Source: a virus
DNA length: 45,348 nt
Virus record (IMG/VR): IMGVR_UViG_3300031964_000041
Span: 1 to 45,348 of that record
Reading direction: 5' to 3' (one strand)
In this document: one piece after another, positions 24,334-35,439 of the stretch
Layout of the letters: each line of letters starts with the position of its first letter
How positions within the stretch are numbered: position 1 is the first letter of the stretch
Made by a program: the position numbers and the translations under genes
Notes under the pieces: model-generated
Database searches by the model: none
Told to the model about the DNA's origin: nothing
Seen by the model: the letters and a program-made list of their open reading frames with translations, nothing else

Positions 24334-24662
24334 CGCGCACCCCGCCCAAGCCGCGCCAACTCCTGAAACTCCCGATTCCCCCGGTCATAGCCCGTCAACT
24401 CGCCAACCTGCCAGCGATGCACTTGCGGCGCCTTTTTCTCGACCGGCTTCGGCTCAGTTCCCGCCACGCAATACCGCGTCGACACCTTGTAGCCTTCGCC
24501 GATCTTCACGCCAACGATCAGGCCTGCGCGGATGGCAGCGGTGAGCGTGGGCGTAATTGCCTTGGCGCTGCAGCCGAACAACTTGCCGAGGTCAGTCATC
24601 GTGTGCGCCTTACCGGGCGTCATGCGCTCGACTAGGCTGCCTGCGGATAGATCAGCGTTCAT
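24330..24662 (-). CDS. Winged-helix DNA-binding protein A
   Basis: A 110-residue protein starting MNADLSAGSLVERMTPGKAH. Residues about 20-65 (MTDLGKLFGCSAKAITPTLT, AAIRAGLIVGVKIG) read as a winged helix. It overlaps the methyltransferase and the next winged-helix gene by 4 bases. Proteins of this build are often found in phage operons; the target is unknown. Start chosen for the 4-base overlap. Confidence 0.65.
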   Translation of the reverse strand: MNADLSAGSLVERMTPGKAHTMTDLGKLFGCSAKAITPTLTAAIRAGLIVGVKIGEGYKVSTRYCVAGTEPKPVEKKAPQVHRWQVGELTGYDRGNREFQELARLGRGAR

Positions 24663-24988
24663 GCTGCGACTCCTATGTTCGATCCATTCCCGCGCCGACA
24701 CATCTCAAAAAAGCACTGGCGCAGCAAATCGTTACCCTCTGCGTTGCGAACCGGCCGCTCGGCTGCGAGTCGGAAGCACAATGCGTTCGTGTGTCTGCGG
24801 CGTCCGTATTCGCGACGGATGATTCCGTCGGCCTCAAATTCGAGAAGTCGATTGCGTGCGGTTTTGCCAGTCAAGCCGGATAGTCCGGCGAATTCCTCGA
24901 TTGACAAGACTTCGCCGGGTTTCAGGAACTTGAACACGTCGACCTCGATGCGGGTGCGCCCGAGCTTTTTGCGAGGCTTGCGAGTCAT
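24659..24988 (-). CDS. Winged-helix DNA-binding protein B
   Basis: A 109-residue basic protein starting MTRKPRKKLGRTRIEVDVFK. IEEFAGLSGLTGKTARNRLLEFEADGIIRR (about 31-60) is a clear winged helix. It lies between two other winged-helix genes with 4-base overlaps. A DNA-binding role is likely; whether it acts in regulation or replication is open. Confidence 0.65.
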   Translation of the reverse strand: MTRKPRKKLGRTRIEVDVFKFLKPGEVLSIEEFAGLSGLTGKTARNRLLEFEADGIIRREYGRRRHTNALCFRLAAERPVRNAEGNDLLRQCFFEMCRRGNGSNIGVAA

Positions 24989-25338
24989 AGAGCCACCATC
25001 CTGCTAAAAGCATTGATCAAATCCGTAGGCGCGCGCGAGGCTTGTTCGGCATGCCGAGTTACGACCGAGCGCGCCAGCGGGGCCGGTGCATGTTGAATGA
25101 CCGCCCTTGTCACTGGAAACGGTTTAAGCGTGCGGAAATAATGCGTCGCCTCGCGTCCCGTAATCGAGTCCGCGAACTTATCCGGCCAGCCACCGACGTA
25201 ACCATCCTTCAGCAGTCGATCGAGCGACTTGTTGATCGTGTTTGCCGGTGCGTCGACGTCACGGAAAATCTCATTGCGCGACGCCAGATGCGCGACTTGC
25301 AAATATCTCGTGATCTGGTCTCGTACTGAATCAGTCAT
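24985..25338 (-). CDS. Winged-helix DNA-binding protein C
   Basis: A 117-residue protein starting MTDSVRDQITRYLQVAHLAS. SRNEIFRDVDAPANTINKSLDRLLKDGYV (about 20-48) forms a winged helix, followed by TGREATHYFRTLKPFPV. An AGGGAGC ribosome binding site precedes the chosen ATG. Third of three consecutive genes of this fold, all overlapping. Confidence 0.65.
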   Translation of the reverse strand: MTDSVRDQITRYLQVAHLASRNEIFRDVDAPANTINKSLDRLLKDGYVGGWPDKFADSITGREATHYFRTLKPFPVTRAVIQHAPAPLARSVVTRHAEQASRAPTDLINAFSRMVAL

Positions 25339-25585
25339 GATTTGCTCCCTTTGCAGGATCGGATGCGAGGCCGCGCCATGCTTCGTCCCGGTCCAAGTAA
25401 GCAACTCCCCCGTTCAGACCAAAGCACGATTTGACGATTTTCTCGCCATTTTCTTCAAGCATCCACCAATTGGAGGCGCCATCGAAATATCGGAGTTCGG
25501 CTTCCCCGACCGAGAACCGCGTTTCATACCATCCTTTTCGGCTCGGCAAAATATCAGCAGCGAACCACCCTGTTAATTCAGCCAT
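25331..25585 (-). CDS. Tryptophan-rich paralogous-family protein, small member 1
   Basis: An 84-residue protein starting MAELTGWFAADILPSRKGWY. Shares LT(G/D)WF, P-x-x-x-G-x-Y, SxWW or RWG and WRGLA boxes with the gene directly upstream (25578-25811), suggesting tandem duplication. Overlaps neighbours by 8 bases on both sides. Function of the family is unknown. Confidence 0.65.
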   Translation of the reverse strand: MAELTGWFAADILPSRKGWYETRFSVGEAELRYFDGASNWWMLEENGEKIVKSCFGLNGGVAYLDRDEAWRGLASDPAKGANHD

Positions 25586-25811
25586 GATTCACCTCCGGCT
25601 TATTCGCCAGCCCGCGCCAGCGTTTGTTTTGAGCACCAGCAGTGCCACATATCGCAGCGGCTTCCGGCGTCGAGTACTGGTTGCCCCAGCGGCCACCGAC
25701 CCAGCGTGAGAAGCCCTTATCCAGGCCATCAACAAACTCGGTCGCGTAGACGCCGGGGTGGACAGGGCGCATGTCTGGTCCAAACCAATCGGTCAGCTCT
25801 TGTTCCATCAT
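25578..25811 (-). CDS. Tryptophan-rich paralogous-family protein, small member 2
   Basis: A 77-residue protein starting MMEQELTDWFGPDMRPVHPG; either of the two adjacent ATG codons may be used, with GGAG 5-8 bases upstream. It contains FSRWVGGRWGN and KRWRGLANKPE. Tandem paralogue of 25331-25585 and more distant from 22989-23372. Overlaps the DUF1064 gene stop. Confidence 0.65.
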   Translation of the reverse strand: MMEQELTDWFGPDMRPVHPGVYATEFVDGLDKGFSRWVGGRWGNQYSTPEAAAICGTAGAQNKRWRGLANKPEVNHG

Positions 25812-26167
25812 TTGGTCTCCAATATCTGAAAGCCCATCACCGCCATGAGGTGTCGCTTTATGCGGTAGCCTTCGGTTATCTTTCCCTTCACGTCTTCGAT
25901 TACCCATTGCGGTCCATCGTCATAGGCGAAGTCAGCGATATATTTCAACGCCGGCCGTTTTCTGCCCTTGATCGAAACGGCCGGCGCCAGCTTGAATTCG
26001 ACTTGCCGAACCAAATTGCGGATCTTCCCGGCGCTTTGAAGCAGCTTCAATTCTTGCCAGCGCGCGTATTCGCGCTTGCTGTCGAACTTCAGGCCATCCA
26101 TCACAACCACCTTGTTGCGGTATTTGGTCGGCTTCGCTGCGGCTTTGGTGGGGGGGCGGAGGGTCAT
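25808..26167 (-). CDS. DUF1064 nuclease (PD-(D/E)XK, resolvase-like)
   Basis: A 119-residue basic protein starting MTLRPPTKAAAKPTKYRNKV. The motif GLKFDSKREYARWQELKLL (25-43) supplies Glu33, YIADFAY contains Asp79, and VIEDVKGKIT holds the E-x-K type pair (Glu91/Asp92, Lys94). This is the layout of DUF1064 proteins, proposed to act as branched-DNA endonucleases in place of RusA or Rap in phage recombination. It lies next to the helicase-loader gene. Confidence 0.82.
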   Translation of the reverse strand: MTLRPPTKAAAKPTKYRNKVVVMDGLKFDSKREYARWQELKLLQSAGKIRNLVRQVEFKLAPAVSIKGRKRPALKYIADFAYDDGPQWVIEDVKGKITEGYRIKRHLMAVMGFQILETK

Positions 26168-26857
26168 GCTTCGACGCCTGTCACGTTGAATATCGCCTCG
26201 CGCGCGATCCGCAGTTTGTTCAGCGGAACTTTTCCGCCAGCCTGGTTGTCTTCAACGATCCGCCGTGCCCAACCGATGTTTCCCATGACCTCGCGCACGG
26301 ATTTGGCCGGCGTGTACGCTTTGCGGGCGATGGCATCGATGCGTAACCGGTCTTGCTCCATCTGCTCGGGCGTTTTTTCGGGCGCTTCCAGGCGGGCTAC
26401 GCGGGGCGGAACCGGCAATACCTCGCCGCTCAAAACGACTTTCAGCGCGCGCTCAAACAGCGGCTTGATCTGGCTAAACGTCTGGCCTAGCATGTCGCGC
26501 TCGCCCACCTTGATCGCTGCCCAGTAAAACGCCGCATTACTCCACTGGTCTTCGCCCTGCTGCCGAAGCCGAATTTGTTCGATGGCTTCGTAAATCGCGG
26601 CATCGATGTTGACCGACGGCTTGCAGATTTCCAGAAACTCGCCCCACGTCGGTGGCCACTTGAGGCGCTCGGCGGCTTTCAGGCCAGCGCGAACGTCAGC
26701 CATTTTCAAATCGTTGGCGCGAATCTTTTCCGCCCACACTCGCTTCATGTTCTCGATCCCGGTATCCAGTCCGTCTACCGTATGCCCGCTGCGGAACGCG
26801 TCCAGCAGCTTGTTGCCAAAGAGCCCATGCAGTTCGCCAAACAGCCAATCCATCGGG

Positions 26858-27870
<1,013 letters not shown>

Positions 27871-27874
<4 letters not shown>

Positions 27875-28284
27875 GCGATCTCCATGCGTGCCGCCGCGCG
27901 CCCAATCATCGTAATAGCCCGCTTAGCCGCACCCAGCGATTTGCGAGCCGCCTTACGGGCCTGAATGGCTTCGTGAGCGGCGAGGCAGTGCGGGCAGGCG
28001 GCGAGGTATTCGCGGATCTCAAAATCGCTCATCCAAACCTGATGGGGTTCGTACTGGTCGCCCTCAATCTTGGGTGTATAGGCTTCTTTCAGGTGCGTAG
28101 CGTCCCCGTGGTGTGCCGCTGCCTCTTCCCCGGTGCACGTCAGCCAGTCGGCGGGGAGGCGGTTGCCAGAGACGCCAGGGCAACGATCGAGCGCCTCACC
28201 CATCTCGAGCGTCAACCGCTTAATCTCGATGTGCAGCCGTGCATAGTCGGCGCAGGCGCGAAGGGCTTTATGTTCGGGGCTCAT
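27871..28284 (-). CDS. Unknown helical protein with Cys/His motif, 137 residues
   Basis: Starts MSPEHKALRACADYARLHIE. Helical at both ends, with EYLAACPHCLAAHEAIQARKAARKSLGAAKRA near the C-terminus, containing CPHC and a His. It overlaps the initiator and methyltransferase genes by 4 bases each. Similar small proteins accompany phage methyltransferases; the function is unknown. Confidence 0.7.
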
Positions 28285-29342
28285 GCGATCTCCAATGCAA
28301 GGCCATGCTGGCGCAATCTGTCGCGCTGCAGCGGCTCATAAGCGGGGTTTAACTCGCAACCAATCCAGTGGCGCCCGAGCCGTTGTGCAACCGATCCGGT
28401 CGTGCCGCTGCCGAAGAACGGATCAAATACGATGTCGCCAGGGCGAGAGCCGGCCATTACGCAGGGCTCGACCAGGGCTTCGGGGAACGTGGCGAAGTGC
28501 GCGCCGCTGTAAGATTGGGTGGCTATAGTCCAAACCGAACGCCGGTTACGGAAACCGTTCGGCAACGTATCGTCGCGGTCTGGCCGGTGAGTGCCGGTCG
28601 ATTGGCCCGGGTGCACCGCTGCGCGCTTGCTGCTCTCGCGCTTGAAACTGTCGCGCGCAGTTACGCGACCCCGCGCCCGCTGCTCGGCGTCGGTACCGAA
28701 ACCAAAGCCGACGCCGCGGGGCTCTATACCCATTACAGCAGGCTCCTTTACGGCGTCAGCATCGTAGAAGTACTGTTCCGATTTGGTCAGTAGAAAGAGG
28801 TATTCGTGCGCGGTCGTCGGGCGGTCAGTCACCGATTCAGGCATCGGATTGGGTTTGCTCCAAATGATGTCCCTGCGCAAATACCACCCCGCGTCCTGCA
28901 ACGCGAACGCGAGGCGCCACGGCTGGCCCATCAAATCCTTTGCTTTGAGGCCCGGTGTGCGGGCGAGATTGCCGGTACCGGATGCGCGAATCTGCGCGGC
29001 CTTCACCTGGTTGGCGCTGATCGCCGAGACGTTCGGCGCATGTTTGCCAGCATGTTCACGGCTCTGCGCGCCCCACGATCCGGCGTAGGCGTCACCCATG
29101 TTCACCCACGCGGTGCCGTCGTCGGCGAGCAGTTCGCGGCACAGTTCGAACACATCGACCAGACGAGCAATGAATTGCGGCAAAGTCGCTTCCTGCCCAA
29201 TCTGCCCGTCAACGCCGTAATCCCGAAGGCCCCAATACGGCGGCGACGTGACGATCGTTTGCACCTTCACACCATCAGCGATCATGCGGCGCATGGTGTC
29301 GCGGCAATCGCCGAAATGGCATTTATCGATCCATGCGTTCAT
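28281..29342 (-). CDS. DNA methyltransferase, beta class, N4-cytosine type
   Basis: A 353-residue enzyme with TSPPYW at residues 32-37 and DPFFGSGTTG at 307-316. The TSPPYW form is characteristic of N4-cytosine methyltransferases. A variable middle part (about 175-275) would hold the target-recognition region. Second orphan methyltransferase of the operon, with no restriction partner nearby. Overlaps the downstream gene by 4 bases. Confidence 0.88.
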   Translation of the reverse strand: MNAWIDKCHFGDCRDTMRRMIADGVKVQTIVTSPPYWGLRDYGVDGQIGQEATLPQFIARLVDVFELCRELLADDGTAWVNMGDAYAGSWGAQSREHAGKHAPNVSAISANQVKAAQIRASGTGNLARTPGLKAKDLMGQPWRLAFALQDAGWYLRRDIIWSKPNPMPESVTDRPTTAHEYLFLLTKSEQYFYDADAVKEPAVMGIEPRGVGFGFGTDAEQRARGRVTARDSFKRESSKRAAVHPGQSTGTHRPDRDDTLPNGFRNRRSVWTIATQSYSGAHFATFPEALVEPCVMAGSRPGDIVFDPFFGSGTTGSVAQRLGRHWIGCELNPAYEPLQRDRLRQHGLALEIA

Positions 29343-29400
29343 GCTTTTCCCGCTTTGTCAGTTCCCTTCCACGCATTCGCAAAAGGGCAAAATTTTTTAG

Positions 29401-29811
29401 CTACGAAGCAACCCGGATTTTTGAATACAGCCGAAGCTCGACTTCACGCTCTCGCTCGATTGATTCGAGGCGATCACGCAAAACACGGTTCTCGCTCTCG
29501 AGATCGGTTTCGATACGACGCAGGCAACGCGGGTCGTAACCACGCTTGAGCAGCCAGTAATGCAACCACGCCTCCGACCCGCACGCGTCCATCAGCGCGT
29601 CCATGTGGGGCTCTGACAGCCTCGCCTGACCCGTCTGCACCTTCGAGAGCACCGCGGCATCCACGCCGATCTCAATGGCTACGCTCTTGTCTTGCAGGCC
29701 ACTGTTTTTAAGCGTGTCGGCAATGACTTTCGCCTCGCTAGTCCAGGCGGGCCAGTCGATTTCACTGGTTGTTTTGAGCGGGCGCTTGACGCGCAAATCG
29801 AGGTCTGTCAT
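29401..29811 (-). CDS. CII-like / helix-turn-helix regulator with coiled coil
   Basis: A 136-residue protein starting MTDLDLRVKRPLKTTSEIDW. SGLQDKSVAIEIGVDAAVLSKVQTGQ (about 37-62) is a helix-turn-helix. The C-terminus is a coiled coil (RRIETDLESENRVLRDRLESIE, about 97-118). Position between the Cro-like gene and replication genes is that of cII in lambdoid phages. The ribosome binding site is weak. A phage CII or other delayed-early activator is likely; direct homology was not established. Confidence 0.65.
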   Translation of the reverse strand: MTDLDLRVKRPLKTTSEIDWPAWTSEAKVIADTLKNSGLQDKSVAIEIGVDAAVLSKVQTGQARLSEPHMDALMDACGSEAWLHYWLLKRGYDPRCLRRIETDLESENRVLRDRLESIEREREVELRLYSKIRVAS

Positions 29812-29856
29812 TGGAGGTCAAGTGAAATGACTGTGGTTGAAGGTCTGTTTTAGATT

Positions 29857-29884
29857 CAAATAAAGGGATCGAATAACCGATCCC
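29857..29884 (-). terminator. Intrinsic terminator after the 92-residue membrane gene
   Basis: On the minus strand GGGATCG-GTTATT-CGATCCC is followed by TTTATTTG. It lies between immediate-early and delayed-early genes, like lambda tR1. Confidence 0.7.
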
Positions 29885-29907
29885 TGGAAATTATTGCAAT
29901 GCCCTAC

Positions 29908-30186
29908 TTACTCAACCAGCCTACAAACCGCCTCAGCCGGAAACATCGCGCCGACCGCTCCGAAGAGCACGATCAGCCAGAACAGCGATTCACCGTCGGC
30001 AGCGTGCAAGGCGCTCCAGAAGATCGCCCCGAGCACCACGACGAAGCCAGCGATCAGCGCAACGTCAGCCAATGGCTTCGCTGGGCGAGCCTCAGCGATA
30101 TCGCGCGATACGTCGGGGACCAAAGCGCCGAATCCACCGATGTCTTGGCGGGTGAGGTGCTTGTTTGTGTCCTTTACTTGAATCAT
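29908..30186 (-). CDS. Membrane protein with two segments, 92 residues
   Basis: Starts MIQVKDTNKHLTRQDIGGFG. Hydrophobic segments at about 40-60 (ADVALIAGFVVVLGAIFWSAL) and 67-85 (LFWLIVLFGAVGAMFPAEA) make a hairpin, with a cytoplasmic N-terminus. It lies between the Cro-like gene and a terminator, so it would be an immediate-early product. Function unknown; superinfection exclusion is possible for such a location. Confidence 0.65.
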   Translation of the reverse strand: MIQVKDTNKHLTRQDIGGFGALVPDVSRDIAEARPAKPLADVALIAGFVVVLGAIFWSALHAADGESLFWLIVLFGAVGAMFPAEAVCRLVE

Positions 30187-30243
30187 CGTGGCGGTCCTCG
30201 TGTCAGCTTTTAAGCAAAACCGGCGGGAATTATGAAATTAGTA

Positions 30244-30582
30244 CTACTCAGCGCCTTCGTCGTCAATTTCGCCAGCGGTGGGCGGCTGGGCGTCATCCGA
30301 GGCGCTCGCGCTATCCACTGCGTCCCTTCCCTTGATCTCGCGGGCCTTGTTCGGCTCGTAGAAGAAAGCGATCAGATCCGCCTTGGTAAACTGAGCGCCG
30401 AACTGGATGCAGGCTTGGTACAGCCACTCCATCCTGGTCGGACTCGGAATCTTTCGCGCATAGATCAAATGCGTTTCGATATACGGCACCGTAGTTTTGG
30501 CCGCCTCAGCGAAGGGTTTCTTGGCGGAGGCGTCTAACGAGCGGTAGAAGCTCTTGAAATTGGCGGGTTCGGTCGGTCTCAT
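30244..30582 (-). CDS. Cro-like regulator
   Basis: A 112-residue protein started at MRPTEPANFKSFYRSLDASA. FAEAAKTTVPYIETHLIYARKIPSPTRMEWLYQAC (about 24-58) carries a helix-turn-helix of the YdaS/Cro type. It is transcribed away from the repressor gene across a shared operator region, the defining position of cro. An acidic disordered tail ends the protein. The predicted promoter places the start of transcription at or very near the ATG, so the mRNA may be leaderless. Confidence 0.75.
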   Translation of the reverse strand: MRPTEPANFKSFYRSLDASAKKPFAEAAKTTVPYIETHLIYARKIPSPTRMEWLYQACIQFGAQFTKADLIAFFYEPNKAREIKGRDAVDSASASDDAQPPTAGEIDDEGAE

Positions 30583-30588
30583 GACCAA

Positions 30589-30617
30589 AATATATATTAC
30601 CCGTACGGTAGTTGCAA
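30589..30617 (-). promoter_or_regulatory. Promoter of the Cro-side early operon (PR-like)
   Basis: On the minus strand TTGCAA (30617-30612) and TATATT (30594-30589) are separated by 17 bases. The spacer contains the whole of operator site A, so repressor binding would block RNA polymerase. Confidence 0.7.
30597..30611. promoter_or_regulatory. Operator-like site A
   Basis: TTACC-CGTAC-GGTAG, a near-palindrome of the form YTACC-N5-GGTAR, inside the PR-like spacer. Confidence 0.7.
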
Positions 30618-30627
30618 GCTGATTTTA

Positions 30628-30642
30628 CTACCCTACTGGACA
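30628..30642. promoter_or_regulatory. Operator-like site B (imperfect)
   Basis: CTACC-CTACT-GGACA: a good left half and a degenerate right half of the same motif, 17 bases before site C. Confidence 0.5.
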
Positions 30643-30644
30643 AT

Positions 30645-30659
30645 TTACCTATTGGGTAA
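30645..30659. promoter_or_regulatory. Operator-like site C
   Basis: TTACC-TATTG-GGTAA, perfect half-sites. It overlaps the probable -35 area of the repressor promoter, with a TAATAT box at 30669-30674. Confidence 0.7.
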
Positions 30660-30678
30660 CAAATGGCCTAATATCGAC

Positions 30679-31443
30679 ATGAAATCAAACGAAGAGGTGC
30701 GCCGCGAGAACCTGCAAAAGGTGATCAGAGAGCGCTACGAAAACAGCCAAACGGCCGCGTCTGACAAACTCGGGTACGACCGGCCGACTCTTGTGAACCA
30801 CTGGACGTCGGGGCGCAAAGCGATCAGCACGGCATCGGCGAGAAAAATCGAGAAAGCTTTTGGACTGCCTGACTTCTGGATGGACTCGGACCATAGTTCA
30901 GGGAAATTTGATCCGCCAAACATAGGGCGTAACCACGGCATAATTAAAGAAGCGCTTAATTCGCCCGGGGATACGCTAGATAAACACGAACGAAAAAAGT
31001 TCGACAAAAACGTAGAGCCGGCGCCGCTGGGTAAACGCGAAGTACCGGTCATAAGCTATATACAGGCGGGGATGATGACCGAAGTTGCTGACCCTTACGC
31101 CTTGGGCGATGGGTTCGAGAAGATCATGACGGATGCGGATGTATCAGAGGGGGCATTCGCGCTCGTTATTAAGGGGCTATCGATGGAGCCAGAGTTCCGC
31201 GAGGGCGATAAGGTGATAATCGACCCTGCGATCGCCCCGCTGCCAGGTGATTTCGTGGCCGCCAAAAACGGCGAGGAAGAGGCCACCTTCAAAAAATACC
31301 GTCCCCGCGGATCCAATGAGCGCGGAGACCTGGTATTTGAGCTGGTGCCGCTAAACGAAGATTTCGCCACGCTGCAGAGTGAGCGCGACAAGATGCATAT
31401 CATCGGCACGATGGTCGAGCATCGGAAGTATCGGAGGCGGTGA
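30679..31443 (+). CDS. LexA/CI-type repressor (helix-turn-helix plus S24 peptidase)
   Basis: A 254-residue protein from MKSNEEVRRENLQKVIRERY; the upstream in-frame TTG would lie in operator C, so this ATG is used, probably leaderless as for lambda cI. The helix-turn-helix spans about 20-55 (SQTAASDKLGYDRPTLVNHW). The C-terminal S24 domain has the cleavage pair Ala130-Gly131 (SYIQAGMM), catalytic Ser168 (GLSMEP) and Lys205 (TFKKY). RecA-stimulated self-cleavage is therefore predicted, making the prophage SOS-inducible. It should bind the operator clusters at 30597-30659 and 36204-36276. Confidence 0.9.
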   Translation: MKSNEEVRRENLQKVIRERYENSQTAASDKLGYDRPTLVNHWTSGRKAISTASARKIEKAFGLPDFWMDSDHSSGKFDPPNIGRNHGIIKEALNSPGDTLDKHERKKFDKNVEPAPLGKREVPVISYIQAGMMTEVADPYALGDGFEKIMTDADVSEGAFALVIKGLSMEPEFREGDKVIIDPAIAPLPGDFVAAKNGEEEATFKKYRPRGSNERGDLVFELVPLNEDFATLQSERDKMHIIGTMVEHRKYRRR

Positions 31444-31476
31444 GGCGAGTCCCCAAATACATTGGCTGGAGGCCAC

Positions 31477-31526
31477 ATGAGCGCTATCGATAATGCGGAG
31501 ATGGACGATTTCATGTCCTTTATTAA
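31477..31526 (+). pseudogene. 5' fragment of a zinc-motif gene split by the insertion element
   Basis: Starts MSAIDNAEMDDFMSFIK with GGAGG six bases upstream, 33 bases after the repressor stop. The element follows immediately, and the frame now ends 13 codons into it (30 residues in total). Joining this fragment to 33618-33885 restores a 105-residue protein without a stop. The gene therefore lay in the repressor operon before the insertion. Its product, with CPLC and CDRC motifs, is unknown. Confidence 0.85.
31519..31526. repeat. Target site duplication, left copy
   Basis: TTTATTAA directly before the left end of the element; the same 8 bases occur at 33610-33617. Confidence 0.92.
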
Positions 31527-31552
31527 GGGTATCCGGATTACTCGGTGGAAAA
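31527..31552 (+). repeat. Left terminal inverted repeat of the ISL3 element
   Basis: Begins GGGTATCCGGATTACTCGGT; the transposase stop codon lies inside it. Confidence 0.88.
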
Positions 31553-32932
31553 GGGTAAATCATGACTGAGCTGTGCTTGGTTGAAACGGTCTTCACACTG
31601 CCTACAAAAGCAGTGGGCTTCTTCTATGTCCGTCACGTCGTCAACGAAGTCTCGAAGCGCTGTCAAGACCTTGGCACTGGCCGCCATCTCCCTGCCTTTG
31701 AACAGTCCATGGCAGCAGCCGCAGCGGTACAGGATGGCATTCACACGTCCGGCTCGCACTTGACGCGCGGACGGCTTCCTGTCGTTGAACAGGAGTCGGG
31801 CGCGGATGACCTCAAACGAGTAGCCTCGGCCCATGCGATTCATCACCTTCGCCACCCCGTTCATGCCCTCGGTGTAGGCGTTGGTGATGGGATAGTCGAA
31901 GAAGTTGAGTATCTCCTTGCGCCAGTTCTTCATGCATCGGGTGAGCTCGAGGAAGTCAGCCTTCAGGCTGGCCGGCACGGCGTCGGCGAAGCTGTCGTAG
32001 TCTTTGATGGCCGCCGACTTGGACTTGTCGTAGATGTCGAACAAGCGCTCCTTGAGCCGGTAGGCCACCGCCATTTCTGGCTCGTTGGCCAGCCACATAT
32101 CCAGGTTGAAGCGCTGCTTTTCGGTCAGGTCTCGGTATCGCATCCGGATGAGAGCTTTGCTGCGCATCCAGCTCCGGCGCACCTTCTTGTCCTGAGCCTT
32201 GCCAAGCCGGATGCGCGTTCGCTCTACGCTTTCATTTGCCTTCTTGACGACGTGGAACTTGTCGACCACCACTGGCAGGTTCTCAAACAACTCCGCAGCG
32301 ACATCGCGGTATGGCGGCCACATATCGATGGTCAACCCCTTGACGTGGCTGCGGTCTTTGAACTGCCTGAACCATTTTCTCAGCATTGGCTTGTCCCGGT
32401 CTGGAAGCATGTCAATGGGTTTGCGCGCGTCGACGTCAGTGATGACAGCCCGCATAATCTTGTTCAGGTGCGTCTCATCCAGCCCAATCCATTCCGGCAG
32501 ATAGGGCTTATAGTCATCGTCGCGGACGTCAACGTAGCTCGCGGCGACGTTACGGACGGTCTTCTCATCGCAGCCAAGGTGCTCCGAGACGCGCTGGAAG
32601 GTATCGACCAGACACTGCCTGCCAATCCAGGCCACGCACCGCTGAGTCATCCGTCGCTCGGCGTCCATCCCCTCAAGGGGCTGCGGGAAGAGGCCGCCGC
32701 ACTCCCGGCATCTGTACCGTTGCACGCTGGCCAGGATGCGAGTTGGCTTGCCAAAAGGGGTATCGAGGAAGGTCGTCTCCCGCAGGCCGTGCTTGTACAG
32801 CGCGGCTCCTATGACACCGCACACCTGGCAAGCATCAGGCTTGCCGGTGTACACCGCGTGGATAGTCATGCCCTCGTCGGTCTCGTCGATGCTGGTCGTC
32901 GTCCAGCCCGGAAGTCTCAAAATGTCAGTCAT
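31538..32932 (-). CDS. tnpA: ISL3-family transposase
   Basis: A 464-residue protein. The N-terminal zinc-binding part has CQVC (35-38) and CREC (75-78). The DDE catalytic core shows Asp152 (IGLDETHLNK), Asp224 (VVVDKFHVVKKAN) and Glu355 (NAYTEGMNGVAKVMNR). These signatures are those of the ISL3 family. It catalyses cut-and-paste movement of the element. The start follows the passenger gene stop directly, so the two are probably cotranscribed. The gene is intact, so the element may be active. Confidence 0.93.
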   Translation of the reverse strand: MTDILRLPGWTTTSIDETDEGMTIHAVYTGKPDACQVCGVIGAALYKHGLRETTFLDTPFGKPTRILASVQRYRCRECGGLFPQPLEGMDAERRMTQRCVAWIGRQCLVDTFQRVSEHLGCDEKTVRNVAASYVDVRDDDYKPYLPEWIGLDETHLNKIMRAVITDVDARKPIDMLPDRDKPMLRKWFRQFKDRSHVKGLTIDMWPPYRDVAAELFENLPVVVDKFHVVKKANESVERTRIRLGKAQDKKVRRSWMRSKALIRMRYRDLTEKQRFNLDMWLANEPEMAVAYRLKERLFDIYDKSKSAAIKDYDSFADAVPASLKADFLELTRCMKNWRKEILNFFDYPITNAYTEGMNGVAKVMNRMGRGYSFEVIRARLLFNDRKPSARQVRAGRVNAILYRCGCCHGLFKGREMAASAKVLTALRDFVDDVTDIEEAHCFCRQCEDRFNQAQLSHDLPFSTE

Positions 32933-33535
32933 CTAGCAGGTCTGCGGTTTGCAACGGGATGCCAACTCTACCAGCCAGAGAGTCAACGCCGGCGGGGTGT
33001 GCTCCCGCTCGGCATGAGTCACAAGTGGGCGCCATCCAAGGTCGCCTTTCTGAAGTCTCCGACCGCCGTTGCCCTTTCGAGCGTCCTGAGCAATTACATG
33101 CGTCCCGGCACCCAGCTCCATGGGCAAGTCGGGAATGTCGCGCGGGTCACACCCGACGATATAGAGCAAGGTCTTCTTCTCGGCCCGGTGCCCCCACCAA
33201 TGCTGCGAGATGCCAAGTGTCCAGCCACCGAAGGCATCTTTAGCCCCACCGGGAGGCGGCAGCTGCTGGTCAGCCCACAACTTCGAGCCGTTGGGGTGCT
33301 CAAGAACACCGCCGAACCTGCGTATCTGAGCAACGGCAAAGCGCGCCAAATCCTTCTCATCGGGCCTCGGATTCGCCATATGAGCCAATCGTCCCCATGC
33401 CCGGCATGGCGGGTGCGCAACCACCGAGCTGCCGCCCGGCCAATTCCTGGCGTCGCGCTCTTCGTCCCATACATCGACCCCTGGCAGCGCCTTGTAATTG
33501 CTGTCATGCCTAGCAAAGAGAACAGCTATCGTCAT
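32933..33535 (-). CDS. Passenger gene: phage-type protein with cytosine-methyltransferase-like motifs
   Basis: A 200-residue protein starting MTIAVLFARHDSNYKALPGV. VVAHPPCRAWG (38-48) has a Pro-Pro-Cys like the catalytic motif of C5-cytosine methyltransferases, and VLEHPNGSKLW (77-87) recalls their ENV motif. Similar proteins, with DARxWPGGxxVVAHPPCRAWG and EREHTPPAL near the end, are familiar from phage and prophage genomes as proteins of unknown function. No AdoMet-binding FxGxG motif is visible, so enzyme activity is unproven. Its place inside the insertion element suggests capture from a phage. Confidence 0.75.
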   Translation of the reverse strand: MTIAVLFARHDSNYKALPGVDVWDEERDARNWPGGSSVVAHPPCRAWGRLAHMANPRPDEKDLARFAVAQIRRFGGVLEHPNGSKLWADQQLPPPGGAKDAFGGWTLGISQHWWGHRAEKKTLLYIVGCDPRDIPDLPMELGAGTHVIAQDARKGNGGRRLQKGDLGWRPLVTHAEREHTPPALTLWLVELASRCKPQTC

Positions 33536-33538
33536 GTC

Positions 33539-33560
33539 AATTCCACCACTTAATCCGGTT
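33539..33560 (-). repeat. Internal degenerate copy of the right terminal repeat
   Basis: On the minus strand this stretch matches the right inverted repeat at about 17 of 22 positions, keeping CCGGA and TAAGTGGT. It lies between the outer end and the passenger start. Confidence 0.6.
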
Positions 33561-33583
33561 TCTTATTGTACGGAGGAATCATG

Positions 33584-33609
33584 TTTTCTACCACTTATTC
33601 CGGATACCC
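33584..33609 (-). repeat. Right terminal inverted repeat of the ISL3 element
   Basis: Read on the minus strand it begins GGGTATCCGGAATAAGTGGT and matches the left end at 21 of 26 positions. Confidence 0.88.
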
Positions 33610-33617
33610 TTTATTAA
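33610..33617. repeat. Target site duplication, right copy
   Basis: TTTATTAA directly after the right end of the element, identical to 31519-31526. Confidence 0.92.
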
Positions 33618-33885
33618 GGAGGCAGGATTTAGTTGCTGCCCTCTATGCAAGAACGAGAATGGATTCACATGGGCGCATGCGGCGGAGATACCGGGATTCG
33701 GCGCAGTCAAGCTTACAGCGTTTCTGCCAGGAACCACCACGGTGCCACAACAGTCGGCCGACAAGACCGAAAGCTATCCGACGCCTCTATATGTCCTGAT
33801 TTGTGACCGCTGCACTCACCTGATGACGTTCTCTAAGACCATGATGTTGCTTGCTCAGGCGGCGAAAAGAAAGAATGGCGAATAA
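33618..33885 (+). pseudogene. 3' fragment of the split zinc-motif gene
   Basis: Continues the frame of 31477-31526 after removal of the element and one duplication copy: EAGFSCCPLCKNENG and so on to AAKRKNGE and a TAA at 33883-33885. In the joined 105-residue protein, CPLC (24-27) and ICDRCTHL (Cys79, Cys82) would form a four-cysteine zinc site. The 3' end overlaps the start of the next gene at 33875, as is common within operons. No own start codon with ribosome binding site is evident for this fragment. Confidence 0.85.
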
Positions 33886-34171
33886 CGTGATTTCTCCCGA
33901 GGCATGGAAGCGACAACGCCAATTGGTTGAAGGTGGAGGCGAACCGCCGTATGATGACGGCATGGACGCTCGAATCACAGCCCTCGAAGCAGCGAATCTA
34001 GAAACCCGAGACCGCCTCATTAAGATTGAGACGCGGATGGAGTCGCTTGCCTCTAAGGAAGATTTGCACAAAGAGCTGTCGGCTCAAACGTGGCGGCTCG
34101 TGACCTTCGTTTGCAGCTTCGGCACAGCTCTCGTTGCCGCAACCTACTTCGTCGCCAAGTACGTACACTAA
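33875..34171 (+). CDS. Membrane-anchored coiled-coil protein, 98 residues
   Basis: Starts MANNVISPEAWKRQRQLVEG, overlapping the end of the split gene by 11 bases. A coiled coil (about 33-65, ITALEAANLETRDRLIKIET) is followed by one transmembrane segment at about 77-94 (FVCSFGTALVAATYFVAK). It is the third gene of the repressor operon; lysogen expression is now likely disrupted by the insertion. Operons with this layout often encode superinfection exclusion functions; that is inference. Confidence 0.7.
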   Translation: MANNVISPEAWKRQRQLVEGGGEPPYDDGMDARITALEAANLETRDRLIKIETRMESLASKEDLHKELSAQTWRLVTFVCSFGTALVAATYFVAKYVH

Positions 34172-34198
34172 CAGAGCCAAGTAGGTCCATCGTAATCA

Positions 34199-34221
34199 GC
34201 CCGCCCCGAGCGGGCTTTTTT
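34199..34221 (+). terminator. Intrinsic terminator ending the repressor operon
   Basis: GCCCGC-CCCGA-GCGGGC is followed by six T on the plus strand, 28 bases after the membrane gene stop. Confidence 0.85.
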
Positions 34222-34425: not shown

Positions 34426-35439
34426 CTAGTCTAGCCCAAGCGGAAGTTCCAGCGTGTTGCCGCGCTTCGGCAGCGCCATGTCGACCATCTTGAGGAATCG
34501 CTGCCAACCATACCCGCTGTTGATTGCCACCCGCTGGAGCATCACAAGCGAATGAAGATGCTGGGCAAGCATGGGGTTCCCAATGTCCGCCGTCAGATGC
34601 TGGTGCAGCTTGGCTGACCGATTGCCGTTGTCGTCTTTTGGCAAGCGCTTTTCGAGTTCTGGCAATAAGCCTGGGGCAAGCCGCTCGAACACAAGATCCC
34701 GCGTATACGTTCCGCAGACGCTATACCGGTTTTTGCTCATGCCAGGCCATACCCAATTCTTCAATTTGTAAATGTTTTCATAAAACTCGTCCGGAAACCT
34801 CTTGACCCAGGACGCCAGTTCCTTGCTAATGATTTTTTCGAGATACGCCTGCAAGGCATCCTGAGGGCGTACTTGCTCATAGCCCGTCGCTTCGTCAATC
34901 AGAGCGATGAGCCCGATCGCAGCAAACCCGTGCTGAAGCATTGCAGCCCGCTCCGCGAGATGTGCCAGTCGTCGGTCAAGGACGCCTTTCATGTTAGCGT
35001 CAATCAATACCGCACAAACATCCGAAAGGAACATTGCCTCGTACCCGTGCGCCGGGTTCCCGCCGTGTGGAGGGATGAACCGAATAGGGGAATTCGCGCG
35101 CGCGATTAAGTCTTTGATTTCAAAACCCTTTCCTTCCAATTTTTCAAGGATTTGAGAGATTCTGCGCGCGCCGCCTTTGCCGCCCCCCTCAGACATTCCA
35201 AGGCCACCTTGCAGCCCGCGCTGAACCAAAACGCGACGCCCATCCTCTAGGACGTAGCAGGGAATCTCAATCAAACCAATCCGCAACGGATGATCGGTAG
35301 ATCCGTGTGTCGCCCTCGGAAGAAGTCGAGCCTCAGCCCCAAGCCGTCCGATTTCACTAAGCCGTTCCGCCGAAGTATTTTGTTTGCGCGCGATACCCCC
35401 CTTCGCGCGGCCCAGAACCTTCTTCTCATCTGAATCCAT
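34426..35439 (-). CDS. P63C-domain protein (accessory/moron gene)
   Basis: A 337-residue protein starting MDSDEKKVLGRAKGGIARKQ. The C-terminal half holds the P63C domain: RFIPPHGGNPAHGYEAMFLS (about 120-139), ATGYEQVRPQDALQAYLEKI (about 184-203) and FPDEFYENIYKLKNWVWPG. The domain occurs in phages, plasmids and conjugative elements and has no known function. The gene is oriented against its left neighbours, has its own promoter and lies between the repressor operon and the second early promoter, a usual place for genes expressed in lysogens. Confidence 0.82.
   Translation of the reverse strand: MDSDEKKVLGRAKGGIARKQNTSAERLSEIGRLGAEARLLPRATHGSTDHPLRIGLIEIPCYVLEDGRRVLVQRGLQGGLGMSEGGGKGGARRISQILEKLEGKGFEIKDLIARANSPIRFIPPHGGNPAHGYEAMFLSDVCAVLIDANMKGVLDRRLAHLAERAAMLQHGFAAIGLIALIDEATGYEQVRPQDALQAYLEKIISKELASWVKRFPDEFYENIYKLKNWVWPGMSKNRYSVCGTYTRDLVFERLAPGLLPELEKRLPKDDNGNRSAKLHQHLTADIGNPMLAQHLHSLVMLQRVAINSGYGWQRFLKMVDMALPKRGNTLELPLGLD

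Follow-up and report, generated by a model that had tools for sequence, protein, structure and literature searches.

A repressor-linked zinc-motif gene split by an ISL3-family element in a temperate phage of Burkholderiales

The virus record IMGVR_UViG_3300031964_000041, analysed over all of its 45,348 bases (the window hereafter), encodes portal, large terminase, and replication and recombination genes, and belongs to a temperate phage with a host among soil bacteria of the Burkholderiales. Directly behind its prophage repressor a short reading frame is interrupted by a mobile element. Here we ask whether the interrupted frame was a real gene, what its product might have done for the lysogen, and what the element itself brought into the phage.

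The interrupted operon

The preliminary description of this DNA had proposed that a frame preceded by GGAGG is cut after 50 bases by a 2083-bp element with an 8-bp duplication, and that its removal restores a 105-residue frame with two Cys pairs ending at 33885. This anatomy was confirmed on the sequence (Table 1). The frame opens with ATG at 31477, 33 nt past the repressor stop, and as the sequence stands its 50 bases run into the element, where 13 further codons lead to a stop, giving a product of 30 aa in total. The direct repeat TTTATTAA is present twice, exactly 2083 bp lie between the two copies, and the ends of this insert are 26-nt imperfect inverted repeats, GGGTATCCGGA. In silico deletion of the element along with one repeat copy gave 105 codons and a stop, placing the insertion point in codon 17. 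The joined protein has two CxxC motifs, at 24/27 and 79/82, with a further Cys at 23; the label zinc-motif is taken from this Cys spacing, and zinc binding is putative. No start-codon frame of at least 60 aa covers 33618-33885 in the frame of the 3' piece in the sequence as it stands. The next gene of the operon, encoding a coiled-coil membrane protein, starts with GTG 1 nt past the zinc-motif stop. The true start of the repressor may be the ATG at 30679. Just past the operon terminator, on the opposite strand, 34426-35439 encodes a P63C-domain protein (phrog_2384) with weak similarity to the anti-repressor Ant.

Table 1. Features of the interrupted lysogeny operon in the window
Feature	Position	Strand	Basis
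LexA/CI-type prophage repressor (HTH and S24 peptidase), lysogeny operon gene 1	30652-31443	+	PF00717 2.4e-16; phrog_4 3.3e-31
Disrupted zinc-motif gene, 5' fragment (16 full codons plus the first 2 bases of codon 17); holds the left TTTATTAA	31477-31526	+	Sequence; joined translation
Left 8-bp target duplication TTTATTAA	31519-31526		
ISL3-family transporter IS, 2083 bp, 26-nt imperfect inverted ends GGGTATCCGGA	31527-33609	-	
ISL3 transposase, 464 aa (zinc ribbon, HTH, DDE domain)	31538-32932	-	PF01610 2.4e-56; PF13542; PF14690; phrog_5749 3.7e-123
Cargo gene, 200 aa, phrog_12600, predicted compact C5-cytosine-methyltransferase-like fold	32933-33535	-	phrog_12600 2.6e-77; AlphaFold pLDDT 81; top PDB fold matches C5 methyltransferases
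Right 8-bp target duplication TTTATTAA	33610-33617		
Disrupted zinc-motif gene, 3' fragment (from the third base of codon 17 through codon 105 to the stop)	33618-33885	+	phrog_4293 match, weaker when the 5' part is left out
94-aa coiled-coil protein, one C-terminal TM segment (residues 71-89), operon gene 3	33887-34171	+	Burkholderiaceae prophage homologues; hydropathy; phrog_6136 1.6e-8
Hairpin terminator, end of lysogeny operon	34198-34216	+	Kept in L018-L020 3' of other slot contents

The insertion had been described as recent, and in sequence terms this is supported, since the duplication is perfect and the frames on both sides of the element are open. The exact empty site was absent from all collections searched (phages, plasmids, viral contigs and genome contigs). 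The same insertion was present in two more contigs. One of these, 3300030399_000011, is the same phage with at most two mismatches. The other, 3300028742_000028, showed no mismatch over positions 24648-33129 of the window (8.5 kb), followed by an abrupt drop to roughly 67-95% identity with a similar gene order, and its end falls inside the element. Thus, the insertion may be present in more than one virus backbone, with the disrupted module moved by recombination; otherwise 3300028742_000028 is a chimeric assembly.

Intact homologues and the accessory slot

Comparison of the joined protein with phrog_4293, a family of phage proteins of unassigned function, revealed a match of 28.0 bits (4e-6) that covers most of its length (residues 6-93 against positions 13-109 of the 124-position profile) and includes the four Cys. 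The 3' piece alone scored 17.7 bits (0.0065), or 19.1 bits with the duplication codons added, so that the joined frame stood 10 bits above its own 3' piece, and neither the 5' piece alone nor the reversed joined protein, used as a control, gave any match to this profile. Because the match spans the junction and the controls are weaker or give none, the joined frame is not a product of chance. The predicted structure of the 3' fragment had a pLDDT of 37 with no usable fold, and searches of solved structures with the zinc-motif and coil profiles returned weak matches only.

We searched two sets of 399 genomes, representing the family and the order of a Paraburkholderia genome, with the phrog_4293 profile; gene neighbourhoods played no part in this search. 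Seven intact members of 90-115 aa were found in Burkholderiales genomes. Their identity to the joined protein of the window is 13-23% only, and when the joined protein was aligned with six of them, just five positions proved invariant, the start Met and Cys 24, 27, 79 and 82. A profile built from five divergent members added no further member. In three loci the order is directly S24 repressor, zinc-motif gene and coil/TM gene (L112/L116, L115/L146 and L140/L143), and in a fourth one extra gene stands between the repressor and the zinc-motif gene (L142/L145). The zinc-coil pair occurs without a repressor in two (L113/L117 and L114/L118), and the zinc-motif gene alone in the last (L141/L144). 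The arrangement of repressor, zinc-motif gene and coil gene therefore recurs in independent genomes, and the window copy differs from these intact members in being split by an insertion. The hidden repressor-linked gene of the preliminary description is thereby supported, with the uninterrupted homologues beside LexA/CI-type repressors found at the level of a distant family only. Translational coupling of the zinc-motif and coil genes is suggested by their spacing, which is +1 nt in the window and becomes an overlap in L140 and L142. In the two loci without a repressor the pair is chromosomal; in one of them (L117) it comes after a gene whose 294-aa product has a hydrophobic segment at the N terminus.

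We also considered whether the joined frame could be a chance fusion or an old pseudogene. This view draws on the lack of a close intact copy: single-sequence searches of phages, plasmids, viral contigs, genome contigs and 399 genomes for a near-identical intact 105-aa protein returned only the same insertion or chance matches, and two apparent intact copies (L107 and L110) were rejected as they overlap long unrelated reading frames. Against it stand the profile match across the junction with its controls, the four invariant Cys, the syntenic intact homologues, the 105 codons without a stop and the perfect duplication, and we regard it as refuted on computational grounds, with hardly any probability left to it. 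Since intact relatives hold the same position in other prophages, the gene is a real one, and from the sequence we are close to certain both of this and of the structure of the insertion.

Homologues of the coil protein occur in Trinickia, Paraburkholderia, Burkholderia, Caballeronia and many viral contigs, and both the window copy and that of L112 match phrog_6324 and phrog_3556. In Burkholderiaceae prophages its gene commonly comes last in an operon headed by an S24 repressor, and the small gene between the two varies. In most coil operons this middle gene encodes a different small helical protein; the zinc-motif gene is thus not needed for the coil gene to persist. The middle gene product is a helical protein of 70-90 aa in six loci (L059, L063, L064, L095, L096 and L099), with no PHROG match among those tested, and a different small CxxC protein in two others (L067 and L102). 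The latter look analogous to the zinc-motif family, but homology was not demonstrable and they were left uncounted. In the nearest relatives of the window, the viral contigs L018-L020, whose repressor is 97% identical, other genes stand between the repressor and the same terminator: one encodes 57 aa and the other belongs to the Fic/Doc family (PF02661 1.1e-9; at 6917-7465 in L018 and likewise in L019 and L020), which probably form a toxin-antitoxin pair. In L021, whose repressor is 54% identical, nothing lies between repressor and terminator. As close relatives hold a Fic/Doc-type pair or nothing there, this stretch of the lysogeny operon is, judged from gene content, a slot for variable accessory genes. 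In other temperate phages some accessory genes of the lysogeny region are proven exclusion genes, among them that for Ltp of TP-J34 (PMC3952083) and sie1, near the repressor of Fc02 (PMC9936078).

The ISL3 element and its cargo

The element shows the features of the ISL3 family: an ISL3 DDE transposase with the family's HTH and zinc ribbon, imperfect inverted repeats beginning with GG, and an 8-bp target duplication. A passenger gene unrelated to transposition lies inside it, which makes it a transporter IS (tIS). ISL3 elements such as ISPst2 have GGGTATCCGG ends and AT-rich 8-bp duplications and are known to carry passenger genes (PMC6305408). The window element resembles ISPst2 in transposase, ends, duplication and the internal position of passenger genes. 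In ISPst2, however, the passengers encode a permease and an ArsR regulator, whereas the passenger here is a phage methyltransferase-like gene and those of related elements are other phage-type genes.

Homologues of the cargo (phrog_12600) occur in Pseudomonas phages, Xanthomonas phages and microviruses. The family is abundant in viral contigs, and in 79 other contigs with a homologue no ISL3 transposase was present in the fetched flanks. Since the homologues are phage genes without an ISL3 transposase nearby, the cargo is a phage gene captured by the element. When its AlphaFold model, based on 19 aligned sequences, was used in a fold search, all of the best 50 PDB matches listed were C5-cytosine methyltransferases (best E 7.4e-4, probability 1.00), with TM-scores of just 0.35-0.52. 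The predicted fold of the cargo is thus closest to that of C5-cytosine DNA methyltransferases such as M.HaeIII and M.HhaI, and the cargo has invariant PPC and EHP motifs; it differs from these enzymes in its length of only 200 aa and its modest TM-scores, and it gave no match in Pfam, DNA_methylase included. The cargo is accordingly described here as a predicted compact C5-methyltransferase-like protein.

Eleven related elements were examined (L007-L014 and the prophage copies L129-L131). In each of them the left repeat is separated from the transposase by further DNA, and seven have perfect 8-bp duplications; the DNA at this position in L014 contained no clear cargo gene. DNA methyltransferases are carried by five of the 11: C5 enzymes (PF00145) in L008 and L012, N6/N4 enzymes (PF01555) in L129 and L131, and a phrog_757 protein in L011. 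The window element adds one C5-like protein, making six in 12 elements, for which the probability would be 5e-8 to 1e-5 if about 2-5% of phage genes are assumed to encode methyltransferases. The kind of cargo is not predicted by transposase similarity: the 62-aa gene of L007 (93%) recurs in L013 (42%), and the C5 type is common to L008 (65%) and L012 (45%). The enrichment is a lead, drawn from a small sample made up mostly of viral contigs. Our literature search found no report of ISL3 phage elements with such a methyltransferase cargo pattern. An IS with a phage methyltransferase-like gene thus sits inside a phage, while its relatives hold different phage genes at the same position, and the pattern bears on the movement of modification genes between temperate phages. 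It is possible, though on balance less likely than not, that an ISL3 lineage of phages and prophages exchanges its cargo at a single fixed position between left inverted repeat and transposase, taking up phage genes and chiefly DNA methyltransferases from several unrelated families. Such a lineage would land in accessory genes, this exclusion-type gene being one, and would shuttle modification genes among temperate phages.

Possible role of the zinc-motif and coil pair

The explanation that we favour, and consider likely overall, is that of a lysogeny operon with a zinc/coil accessory pair whose zinc-motif gene was broken by the transporter IS. Without the element the operon runs from the S24 repressor through the zinc-motif protein and the coiled-coil, single-span membrane protein to the terminator. 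The two proteins would be produced in the lysogen and act as a pair, in which the coil protein is the membrane anchor of a zinc-motif protein that serves in the cytoplasm as sensor or adaptor, most likely conferring superinfection exclusion or a similar accessory benefit. Entry of the ISL3 element with its phage-derived methyltransferase-like gene at codon 17, with the 8-bp duplication, inactivated the zinc-motif gene; the sensor would be lost, translation of the membrane partner uncoupled and the pair disabled, with repressor function, and hence immunity, left intact. On the sequence evidence the zinc-motif gene is probably a protective accessory gene, and the window would be a natural knockout of the pair. 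Exclusion as its specific function, proposed by analogy, has in our view a little less than an even chance. A search of the pair against the PADLOC defence library gave no match. This uncharacterised pair, recurrent beside S24 repressors in Burkholderiales, would be a new candidate for prophage-encoded exclusion.

The operon had been likened to rexAB. Lambda rexAB and the Rex-like pairs of Sbash (gp30/31), CarolAnn (gp44/43) and Butters (gp30/31) are two prophage-expressed accessory genes, one with an apparently soluble and one with a membrane product. The window pair has the same two kinds of product and would likewise be made from the prophage; rexAB directly follows cI, and the window pair lies in the repressor operon. 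The soluble partner here differs, being a four-Cys protein of about 105 aa; no Rex match was found in Pfam (E<=1) or PADLOC, and the coil protein has one hydrophobic segment by hydropathy, as against four transmembrane helices in Rex-like membrane partners (PMC7542560). RexAB membership was therefore rejected, although the pair may still work like a Rex-type system. Of the earlier interpretation as a whole, the hidden repressor-linked gene and the young insertion stand; the exact empty site was not found, and the likeness to rexAB is confined to layout.

A different role for the pair would be to tune the repressor or induction, with membrane or stress sensing setting the stability of lysogeny. 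Such a role fits the close association of the pair with S24 repressors, seen in several genomes, the putative translational coupling and the small, adaptor-like proteins without an enzyme domain in Pfam, but two chromosomes (L117 and L118) have the pair at a site apart from any repressor, and the repressor is independent of the slot, since in close relatives the slot holds unrelated accessory genes or is empty. We therefore consider tuning unlikely, while still the nearest competitor to exclusion. The coil protein might instead be a lysis function, an XhlA-like holin accessory unconnected to the zinc-motif protein. A homologue's coil protein weakly matches the 'hemolysin' families phrog_937 and phrog_1193 (2.7e-4 and 2.3e-3), but the coil protein of the window itself matches nothing of this kind in Pfam or PHROG, its gene lies in the repressor operon with no lysin adjoining, and it is repeatedly paired with the zinc-motif gene; this reading is very unlikely.

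The favoured account treats the insertion as damage to the pair. It could also have been adaptive for the phage, an accessory gene being exchanged for a methyltransferase-like gene that enters the lysogeny slot. The phage origin of the C5-methyltransferase-like cargo, the methyltransferases of its relatives and the presence of the disrupted module, free of mismatches over 8.5 kb, in a second backbone would agree with this. We judge it improbable, if less so than a lysis function, as a single insertion event was seen, the second backbone is possibly a chimeric assembly, and the cargo lies on the opposite strand to the operon with, at most, a putative promoter.
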